A DNA stretch of 64,000 nt from Candidatus Gastranaerophilales bacterium. GTDB taxonomy: Bacteria > Cyanobacteriota > Vampirovibrionia > Gastranaerophilales > Gastranaerophilaceae. Of the stretch, positions 23,398 through 28,182 are shown piece after piece. The notes beneath the pieces were generated by a model. It saw nothing but the letters and a program-made list of their open reading frames with translations, was not told the origin of the DNA and made no database searches. Positions within the stretch are counted from its first letter, which is position 1. Every line of letters starts with the position of its first letter. The stretch lies in NCBI GenBank assembly GCA_944325625.1, contig CALVAP010000013.1, forward strand, positions 62,001 to 126,000, written 5' to 3'. The position numbers were made by a program, and so were the translations under genes.

Positions 23398-24961
<1,564 letters not shown>

Positions 24962-25048
24962 ATTTTATGTTTCTCAACTGACAAAAATTTTTTTGTTTGA
25001 ATTTTAAGTAAGTGTATATCACACAATATTAAAAAAGAAATTATTAAA

Positions 25049-26413
25049 ATGCAGATACAGTTTTTGCCAACACAGTCTTTGTATAAATATAAGCCAGAAT
25101 ATAAGAATTCTACAAGACCTCAATTTGGGCAGCTAAACAAAGATATATTTGTTTATTCTTCAAGCTCAGCTGAAAATGAAACAATATCAGATAATAAACT
25201 TATATCGCTTTTAAATATAGGAAAAAAAGAAAAGCTTAATTTTTCTCAAGCAACTCTTGATACGATTAGACAGAGCGTTCTAAGTGAAAAAAGCGATGAA
25301 AGGCAAAATCTCAATCTTGCTGCACTGGGACATCGCGTTGGTGTAGCAGCTATTCGTAAATATTTATTATTTGCCTTGCCGGATGGAACATCATTTTACC
25401 ACTCTTTGCATGCAAAAAGCATGATTCCATTGTTACACGGCAGTATTTTTTCTGACAATAGTGAAGCACAAGCAAATAACAAAACTTCAAATACTCATCT
25501 TACCGATAAAGAAAAACTTCAAAAATACTTTTTTAGAGTACTGGGAAGCATATATTTGAACGAACCTGAAGGCACGGTTTATAAATATCTTGAACAACAC
25601 ATTGATGACACCATGAAAAACGATGATGTTGATAAAATGAATAGAATGCTTAATTGGTATTATTTTCATGCTTTGAGAGGAAGAAAACATTATACCTACG
25701 AGGTTAGAAGAGTTTCAAGTAAAAAATTTATAGCAACTGACTATATTGATGGGGAAAAAATCAATGAAGTTACAGCAAAAACACAAAATGGTGCAGCTAA
25801 GAAACTTTTGATAACGCATTTACAGCAAATCGGCTTACATCACTCTCAAATGAGGATACACAACGATAAAGTTCCCACAAGAAAATACGTAGGAAGTCAA
25901 CCAGCAAAAGATAAAGTAGAATACGTACTCTCAAGAACCGGTTTCCTTAAGCCAGAAGATAAACTTGATAAGTACAATGACGCAGAAAAAATCTATTACA
26001 TTCTTCATTCACTAAAACTTCATGGAAATAAGAATCTGTTTTTCAATTTCGATGCCCTTGAACACTATGGGGATGGAGTAATAAATCTTTTAGTTACAAA
26101 ATTTCTATGTGAAAAAACTCTTCCAAAGGAAAAATTTAAGTACTACTTTTCATTAATGACGGGAAACAAATCCTTGCCAAGATACACGTTGACACTTGGA
26201 TTACAGAATTACGTAGATAAGGGTGATTGCTATTTTGAGATGGATATAAAGCGACTTGCAGACTTATTTGAGGCGTACGTCGGTGCATTACATTTATCAT
26301 TTTCTGAAGAAAGAGTTTACAACTATTTGAAGCCGCTTTTTGAACTTATGCTAAAAGATATTCAAAAACATGACATGTACCCTTCGCGAAATGAAAGCAA
26401 TAAATTTGACTAA
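25049..26413 (+). CDS. tandem RNase III-like protein (degenerate RIII, dsRBD-like, intact RIII)
   Basis: 454 residues. The C-terminal part fits an RNase III domain: ALEHYGDGVINLLV has Glu338 and Asp342 where the LEFLGD box places its metal ligands, TGNKSLPRY matches the NNKTLAR segment, and KRLADLFEAYVGALHL supplies Asp405 and Glu408. Residues 215-261 (YTYEVRRV, GEKINEV, AAKKLLITHL) look like a dsRNA-binding domain. Residues 85-190 look like a second RNase III domain with lost catalytic residues (LAALGHRVGVA, FFRVLGSIYLN). The polar N-terminus has PQFGQ. Typical bacterial RNase III is about 230 residues with the dsRBD at the end. No good SD precedes the ATG. Cleavage of double-stranded RNA is inferred. 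Confidence 0.65.
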   Translation: MQIQFLPTQSLYKYKPEYKNSTRPQFGQLNKDIFVYSSSSAENETISDNKLISLLNIGKKEKLNFSQATLDTIRQSVLSEKSDERQNLNLAALGHRVGVAAIRKYLLFALPDGTSFYHSLHAKSMIPLLHGSIFSDNSEAQANNKTSNTHLTDKEKLQKYFFRVLGSIYLNEPEGTVYKYLEQHIDDTMKNDDVDKMNRMLNWYYFHALRGRKHYTYEVRRVSSKKFIATDYIDGEKINEVTAKTQNGAAKKLLITHLQQIGLHHSQMRIHNDKVPTRKYVGSQPAKDKVEYVLSRTGFLKPEDKLDKYNDAEKIYYILHSLKLHGNKNLFFNFDALEHYGDGVINLLVTKFLCEKTLPKEKFKYYFSLMTGNKSLPRYTLTLGLQNYVDKGDCYFEMDIKRLADLFEAYVGALHLSFSEERVYNYLKPLFELMLKDIQKHDMYPSRNESNKFD

Positions 26414-28182
26414 AGGTTCACATCAATTGGTGCGTCTAGTTGTCCTTCTGAACCGGTCGGATTTATTGGGGCTCCAACAGTCTTTTCTACACTTGCAACT
26501 GCAGTATTGTATTGCATAATCGCACTGTAATAGTTTAACTGTGCATTTCTGTAGGTAATTTCCGCATCTTTAAGCTCTATTGCATCACTCAAGCCTGTTT
26601 TATAACGCCCTGCAGCTATTTCATACTGCAATTGTGCTTCATTCATCGCCTGATGCGCGACAGGTACACTGTCTCTGGCGTTTACATAATCTATGTATGC
26701 TGTTTTTACATCAAGATACACATCATTTTGTTTTCGTTCTAAATCTGCTAAATCCCTTTCGTAAGTTGCTTTAGCTTCATTGACCTGTTGTTTCAAAAGA
26801 AAGAAATTAGTCGTGGGATAAGAAAGCCTAACACCTAGCGAATAGCCGTAATTATCCGCATAATGTCTTCCGCCCAAAGTATAACTTCCAAATCCTCTCA
26901 GGTCAGGAGTAAATGCCAATTTAGAAGCTGTAACAAGAGTTTTCGATGCTTCCGCCTTTTTGACTACAGATTGGAGTTCAGGACGAAGTTCATAGGCTTT
27001 TTCAATCAACTCCTCAAAGTCAAGGCTATAGTCATTAATCTCCATTTTGTCGGTTACATTATAATTAGAGTACGAAGGCAACCCCATAGTATTATTCAAT
27101 TGTGCTTTTGCTGCATCAACTTGGTTTTTAGCTTTAATTAAGTCCAACTTTGCATTGCTTAAATTATACTCGGCAGTAACAACATCTATTTTTGCTTTAG
27201 CCCCAACATCATATGCTGCCTTTGCTTCAAGATAGTGTTTATTAAATTTGTCAACAGTAGATTGTAATACCTGCTGCTGCCTTAGAGTATATAAATATTG
27301 ATAATATGCCGATTTAACATTAAAAACAGTATCATTTATTGCTGTTTGAATATCAGAAACACTTGCCTCATGAGTCTTTTTTGCCATTTTTGCCTGTTGT
27401 TGAGTTTTACCAAAATCATAAAGAAGTAATGAGCCCTCTAAGGCTGCCGCGTTCCATAAATCATATTTCATTTTGGGAAATTTGAAGTTAGTAGCTAGCA
27501 TTTTATTCTTTGAATATGCAGTACCTATACTAAATTCCGGGAAATAATTCGACCACGCTTGAGCAATTTTGGATTTATAAATATCTGAATTGCTTATCGC
27601 ATACCTTATTGTAGGGTTATTGTATAGCGCAAGTTTTACACAATCATCTATTGAAACAAGTACATTCTCTTCCACTCCACCTTTTATAGTTGTAGTTGTG
27701 GAAGCAGTAATTTCATCATCTACAACCTTACTGTTAACTCTGTCTGCTAGAGCTTCTTGACGTTCTTTTACTGACATATCTTCCTCAGCCCTCTTAGCTG
27801 CACGTCTTTCACTCCATTTTTTCTTGGCTTGTTCTTCTTGTACTTCAGCTATAGATTTCGTTTTTACAGGTTCGCTGCTAAGGGCTTTGCTTGAAGAATT
27901 AAAAACATCAGCCTGTTTGATTTCATTTTCATCATTATTTGCATTTCCATCATCAGTTTGCAGTTCTGGAGTTTTTGTCTTTTGAGCTTTTTTAAACCTG
28001 TCAAGATTAAACTTCTTCCAAAAAGGCTCTTTCACTGAAATCGGTTGTGCTGCCACTGGCTCTGGCTGAACCATCTCGTCAATTGTTTTTGGAACAGAAA
28101 CATCTTCTTCTATTGCCAATGCTTGAGATGTGGCCGTTAACCCAAATGCGATTATTAACATTAAACTTTTAATCTTTTTCAT
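26410..28182 (-). CDS. TolC-family outer-membrane efflux protein
   Basis: 590 residues with a Sec signal peptide (KKIKSLMLIIAFGLTATSQALA). Two OEP repeats form the periplasmic alpha-barrel and outer-membrane beta-barrel: residues about 185-385 (VSIDDCVKLALYNNPTIRYA) and 390-580 (AYELRPELQSVVKKAEASK). A linker of about 150 residues rich in Lys, Glu and Pro between signal and barrel is longer than in E. coli TolC (493). It is the last gene of the efflux operon, 18 bases after the RND pump, and its end overlaps the end of the convergent RNase III-like gene by four bases. Confidence 0.92.
   Translation of the reverse strand: MKKIKSLMLIIAFGLTATSQALAIEEDVSVPKTIDEMVQPEPVAAQPISVKEPFWKKFNLDRFKKAQKTKTPELQTDDGNANNDENEIKQADVFNSSSKALSSEPVKTKSIAEVQEEQAKKKWSERRAAKRAEEDMSVKERQEALADRVNSKVVDDEITASTTTTIKGGVEENVLVSIDDCVKLALYNNPTIRYAISNSDIYKSKIAQAWSNYFPEFSIGTAYSKNKMLATNFKFPKMKYDLWNAAALEGSLLLYDFGKTQQQAKMAKKTHEASVSDIQTAINDTVFNVKSAYYQYLYTLRQQQVLQSTVDKFNKHYLEAKAAYDVGAKAKIDVVTAEYNLSNAKLDLIKAKNQVDAAKAQLNNTMGLPSYSNYNVTDKMEINDYSLDFEELIEKAYELRPELQSVVKKAEASKTLVTASKLAFTPDLRGFGSYTLGGRHYADNYGYSLGVRLSYPTTNFFLLKQQVNEAKATYERDLADLERKQNDVYLDVKTAYIDYVNARDSVPVAHQAMNEAQLQYEIAAGRYKTGLSDAIELKDAEITYRNAQLNYYSAIMQYNTAVASVEKTVGAPINPTGSEGQLDAPIDVNL

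Follow-up and report, generated by a model that had tools for sequence, protein, structure and literature searches.

A single bacterial protein with a degenerate and an intact RNase III domain in Candidatus Gastranaerophilales

Domain architecture and the intact C-terminal domain

The gene under study lies in a stretch of 64,000 nucleotides (the window) from the genome of a Candidatus Gastranaerophilales bacterium (GenBank assembly GCA_944325625.1, contig CALVAP010000013.1, positions 62,001 to 126,000). The open reading frame at 25049..26413 on the forward strand specifies a protein of 454 amino acids in which a degenerate (dead) RNase III domain, a double-stranded RNA-binding domain (dsRBD) and an intact (live) RNase III domain follow one another. 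The coding sequence was delineated from the open reading frame, a match to the Pfam family PF00636, alignment with a profile of rnc-encoded housekeeping RNase III, and a full-length homologue that another species of the genus carries at the equivalent position. The proposal that one of two RNase III domains is intact and the other dead was made initially in a reading of the sequence without database searches (the sequence-only reading), and is supported here by profile comparisons with a shuffle control, predicted folds and conservation in the homologue. The codon-position G+C content of the gene is native.

The intact domain comprises residues 285-440 (25901..26368, forward strand) and was recovered in hhalign comparisons at 98.7%. 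Residues 336-417 matched PF00636 at 39.9 bits (E 7.6e-10), above the cut-off of 27. This was the sole domain detected in the Pfam scan of the 454-residue protein, in which the N-terminal half produced no match and neither a helicase nor a PAZ domain was found. The catalytic acids of Escherichia coli RNase III are E41, D45, D114 and E117 (PMC9291653). The equivalents of the first two are in the signature E338-H-Y-G-D342 (26060..26074, forward strand) and those of the latter two in D405-L-F-E408 (26261..26272, forward strand), and both motifs are invariant in six of six aligned proteins with two RNase III domains. All four acids also are retained in the homologue, which is only 30% identical overall, and the longest blocks conserved between the two proteins are in the C-terminal half. 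The motifs LEHYGD (E338, D342), NKSLPRY and LADLFEAYVGA (D405, E408) are located and spaced as the sequence-only reading described, and the C-terminal region, with the E..GD and D..E acidic cluster that typifies the RNase III superfamily, is an RNase III domain with certainty by sequence. The protein scored 28 bits with the NCBIfam RNaseIII model, far under the cut-off of 166. As the dsRBD is sited between the two RNase III domains and none follows the live domain, the protein departs from the canonical layout of one RNase III domain and then a dsRBD.

The degenerate N-terminal half

The protein commences with a variable leader (residues 1-59; 25049..25225, forward strand) for which the predicted local distance difference test (pLDDT) values were about 23-31. 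The degenerate RNase III domain follows at residues 60-190 (25226..25618, forward strand), as judged by hhalign with a shuffle control, by alignment and by the predicted fold of residues 60-272. By alignment, the four catalytic positions are occupied by A91, H95, K159 and F162 in place of Glu, Asp, Asp and Glu, respectively, and the homologue likewise is devoid of acids at these positions. The N-terminal half was assessed with a two-sequence profile built from the window protein and the homologue, which was compared with one derived from 19 housekeeping RNase III sequences. Residues 60-270 yielded an hhalign score of 41.9 with 160 colinear columns across both the nuclease domain and the dsRBD, compared to a maximum of 25.5 over 200 column shuffles and a value of 11.5 for the reversed profile. 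This significant colinear similarity is that expected of descent from RNase III, and the earlier view that residues 85-190 repeat the RNase III scheme without the acids is borne out. The nuclease part by itself is weak, with scores of 16.7 for residues 60-200 and 30.1 for residues 80-200, and the significance of the match therefore is carried jointly by the nuclease part and the dsRBD. Comparison of the N-terminal profile with Protein Data Bank sequences returned chance matches only.

The dsRBD spans residues 193-264 (25625..25840, forward strand) and has the order helix-strand-strand-strand-helix, with the first helix at residues 193-208, strands at 215-243 and the second helix from residue 246. 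A dsRBD-like stretch between the nuclease domains had been noted previously, with an extent (residues 215-261) that is slightly too short. In the model of the full-length protein, which was produced from a two-sequence alignment, the strands and second helix of this dsRBD-type fold are confident, with pLDDT values mostly of 70-89 from residue 211 on. Alignment of model residues 190-270 with solved dsRBDs using VIA-align gave Z scores of 6.4-7.8 over about 65-75 residues. As ribosome hibernation factors scored nearly as well against the same segment, the assignment leans also on colinearity with rnc. The dsRBD was assigned to the dead half of the protein such that the degenerate domain and the dsRBD together constitute one complete decayed RNase III.

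The best Foldseek matches of the full-length model were to mL44, Drosha/DGCR8, dsRBDs and RNase III, none of which was below an E value of 0.01. When the viral-contig RNase III sequences that were found were aligned with the full-length protein, all landed on the C-terminal domain, and a second fold accordingly was predicted with the N-terminal half only. The model of residues 60-272, for which seven viral-contig RNase III rows were added to the alignment, had a pLDDT of 78. Its best matches, with those rows included, were E. coli RNase III (E 6.4e-5), mL44 and the Aquifex enzyme, at Z scores of about 9-13. Two aspects of the models weigh against the favoured explanation, with its internal pairing, that is discussed below. 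The AlphaFold2 model of the full-length protein was poor, with a pLDDT of 39. Moreover, as RNase III rows were present in the alignment, the RNase III-like fold predicted for residues 60-272 denotes compatibility and is not independent proof.

Genomic context and related proteins

The sequence-only reading had suggested a search for a separate canonical rnc. An ordinary rnc gene specifying 246 amino acids was located 18 kb ahead of the window, at about 43.2-43.9 kb of contig C13, and a Mini-III of 118 amino acids is encoded on contig C1. The 454-residue protein thus brings the RNase III enzymes of this genome to three. Such an additional, long RNase III gene was present in two of the 59 genomes surveyed, namely the window genome and that of the homologue. 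The homologue is 30% identical over residues 41-445, has the same domain order, and occupies the same tgt/tolC locus; it also occurs in a public record from goat colon (JAFQTK010000166.1). No further homologue of the window protein was detected in genomes of its own genus, in a 383-genome family sample, in GTDB contigs or in viral contigs. There also was no match in phages and no informative match in PHROGs, and the scan of the window for tRNA genes and Rfam families revealed none.

The upstream gene at 23846..24961 (forward strand), which from its sequence and established knowledge we take to be tgt (queuine tRNA-ribosyltransferase), is 88% identical in the second species according to codon and identity comparisons. 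The gene at 26410..28182 (reverse strand) is convergent, overlaps the stop of the 454-residue gene by 4 bases and, on the same grounds, presumably specifies a TolC-like outer-membrane efflux protein; comparison of the flanks places it likewise in the second species with 76% identity. The intervening gene is only about 30% identical between the two carriers, with nonsynonymous divergence (dN) of 0.87 compared to 0.09 for tgt at similar synonymous divergence (dS). The gene is absent in a third species of the genus, in which the tgt and TolC-like stops are convergent and 4 bases apart. The presence or absence of the gene between the convergent stops is clean (window 24961-26413 compared with L059 6224-6229). 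The very low identity between the two copies in comparison with tgt and the absence from the third species might befit a functionless sequence, either an rnc duplicate in decay or an artefact of assembly. This explanation is disfavoured and very improbable: the domain order and intact site recur at this locus in a genome that was assembled independently, dN/dS is 0.45 and below across pairs with dS near saturation, and similar proteins exist in another genus.

The latter proteins emerged from a survey of PF00636 genes in a sample of 383 genomes of the order. Nearly all of the genomes have two such genes, and in some genomes of another genus in the family the matches number as many as eight, or ten under a more permissive cut-off. 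Genome G349 possesses a tandem array that encodes proteins of 888, 466 and 444 amino acids. An 888-residue protein is specified alongside adjacent proteins of 476 and 447 amino acids in G239, and a protein of 488 amino acids in G261 has the live domain first and the dead domain after. These double (444-488 amino acids) and quadruple (888 amino acids) genes are at L178 4729-10146, L179 6274-8940, L180 5666-8440 and L181 5430-6896. The two 888-residue proteins have four RNase III domains each, of which the last alone is intact. In a motif scan, exactly one intact paired site (E..GD with AD..EA) was present in nine of nine multi-domain proteins from the two genera. Proteins with the forward order, as in the window, were confined to four genomes in two genera in a profile search of the 383 genomes, and no full-length relative of the double proteins was found in viral contigs or phages. 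A long open frame inspected in other families of the phylum (409 amino acids from its start) was rejected as an ordinary RNase III with an N-terminal extension.

The N-terminal half of the forward-order proteins aligned with rnc over 222 columns at 98% probability, and interpretation as a dead RNase III plus dsRBD is stronger for the proteins of the other genus than for the window protein. In the closest pair (444 amino acids of G349 and 447 amino acids of G239) dN/dS was 0.33 for the dead domain, 0.10 for the dsRBD and 0.20 for the live domain. The dead domain in the related proteins is under purifying selection and is being kept, and hence does something. The leader is the fastest-evolving part of the proteins of the other genus (dN/dS 0.61). 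A QILFKG/QILFTG-like leader ahead of the dead domain is common to several double proteins (L178, L179, L180), and PQFGQ stands at a comparable position in the window protein. A scan for an N-terminal F.G motif of the leader yielded nothing informative. Dead RNase III proteins that stand alone, of 215, 226 and 298 amino acids, also were observed (L182 3031-3927; L183 2248-2928; L184 4197-4844), one with a weak dsRBD match after the domain.

The N-terminal half of the window pair scored 30.4 with its counterpart from the other genus, which is under the value of 41.9 with rnc. As the window N-terminal half resembles rnc more than it resembles that of the other genus, a shared origin of the fusion is not established. 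The live domains of the window and of the other genus grouped with each other in the best tree, for which support was weak (62/95), and grouping of the live domain with rnc of the genus likewise was not rejected (approximately unbiased test, 0.24). The position equivalent to E. coli D114 is Asp in all live domains of these proteins and Cys in each of the 47 rnc proteins of the order that were examined, one of which is at L022 1348-2088. Thus, the live domain is not simply a recent duplicate of the rnc found today, unless a reversion to Asp has occurred. The residue at this position in rnc of other families of the class is C, D, N, R or A. The D114A mutant of E. coli RNase III is weakly active (PMC8708148). 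In trees, rnc of the window genus (L006, L021, L022) is on a long stem branch (1.2-1.7 changes per site), and this applies also to the species that lacks the additional gene.

Proposed domain pairing and strand cleavage

RNase III domains act as pairs (PMC9508840). Each domain of a pair contributes one active site to a shared groove for double-stranded RNA (dsRNA). In the 454-residue protein, the dead and live domains may pair inside one chain while the dsRBD would hold the duplex, and the sole active site then would cut one strand to leave a nick or strand-specific cut, whereas ordinary RNase III makes a staggered cut in both strands. We infer the dsRNA substrate, the nicking, the intramolecular pairing and the role. 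Our analysis favours this single-site, intramolecular pseudo-dimer as the most likely mechanism, with moderate confidence, and it is suggested by the retention of one live domain per chain through changes of domain order and number. There are precedents for its elements: trypanosome editing endonucleases combine a catalytic and a non-catalytic RNase III domain with a single site, which is proposed to limit cleavage to one strand (PMC9508840), and the same article cites heterodimers of E. coli RNase III in which one subunit is functional.

The main rival, which runs counter to internal pairing and is judged to have a distinctly smaller but appreciable chance of being correct, is that two chains pair via their live C-terminal domains. 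Such a homodimer would have two sites and make ordinary double cuts, with the dead half as a dsRNA-binding or regulatory arm. The completeness of the C-terminal domain fits this arrangement, canonical RNase III being a homodimer of such domains, as does the concentration of the longest conserved blocks in the C-terminal half. Retention of the dead domain as a domain under purifying selection, the single live site of the four-domain chains and the occurrence of the live domain at either end of the chain tell instead against the homodimer, although each is compatible with it still. An improbable alternative is that the protein is mainly a regulator, which would bind dsRNA or associate with the housekeeping enzyme and blunt or redirect the activity of that enzyme. 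The stand-alone dead RNase III proteins in related genomes and the long stem branch of rnc in the genus would accord with a regulator, whereas conservation of four of four live-domain acids at 30% overall identity argues for catalysis.

The proposed internal pair can be set beside known systems. The live domain shares the RNase III signature and the four acids with canonical rnc proteins, and the dead half with its dsRBD is colinear with the whole of rnc; the differences are a second, dead RNase III domain, the lack of a dsRBD after the live domain and the separate rnc in the genome. Dicer and Drosha have two RNase III domains per chain that are paired internally, and both domains are catalytic. 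In these enzymes the dsRBD is last and there are large extra domains, whereas the N-terminal domain of the 454-residue protein is without all four acids, its dsRBD is in between and no helicase or PAZ domain accompanies it. The trypanosome editing endonucleases (KREN1-3 with KREPB8, B7 and B6) share the pairing of catalytic and non-catalytic domains around a single active site, which in the 454-residue protein is a putative pairing, but they are distinct polypeptides that carry zinc fingers and belong to an editing complex, in contrast to a single bacterial chain. The mitochondrial ribosome protein mL44, which was among the best fold matches, has the degenerate RNase III and dsRBD composition of the dead half, but is a ribosomal protein with no fused live domain. 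Mini-III (MrnC) similarly has a nuclease domain without a C-terminal dsRBD, but is a single-domain dimer of about 120-140 amino acids.

Two RNase III domains in one chain are known from eukaryotes and apparently have not been described in bacteria. One review recognizes two kinds of bacterial RNase III protein, the canonical enzyme and Mini-III (PMC10989914), and in another all bacterial members are in one class with these two as examples (PMC8708148). No description of a single-chain live/dead RNase III in bacteria was found in searches of an open-access library. To that extent the result agrees with the sequence-only reading, which was aware of no described bacterial architecture of this kind, but the protein is not a singleton as more examples exist in another genus. 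If the interpretation is true, the single-chain live/dead pair would be a third kind of bacterial RNase III, a compact counterpart to the paired domains of Dicer and the trypanosome editing endonucleases, and could supply a small dsRNA nickase. The passage of an RNase III pair from two active sites to one also becomes directly testable.

More tentatively, the family may have evolved a class of single-chain nickases in which a lone live RNase III domain is combined with one or three dead ones and intervening dsRBDs, and which are array-amplified and fast-evolving as in conflict with dsRNA-exposing phages or other mobile elements. Such a conflict is a possibility that would fit the fast divergence, patchy presence and arrays. 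Against this idea, the neighbors of the 454-residue gene look housekeeping and there was no credible match to a defence model: PADLOC models yielded only a JetB match of 17.7 bits, which was obtained with one of the two copies and probably is due to chance.
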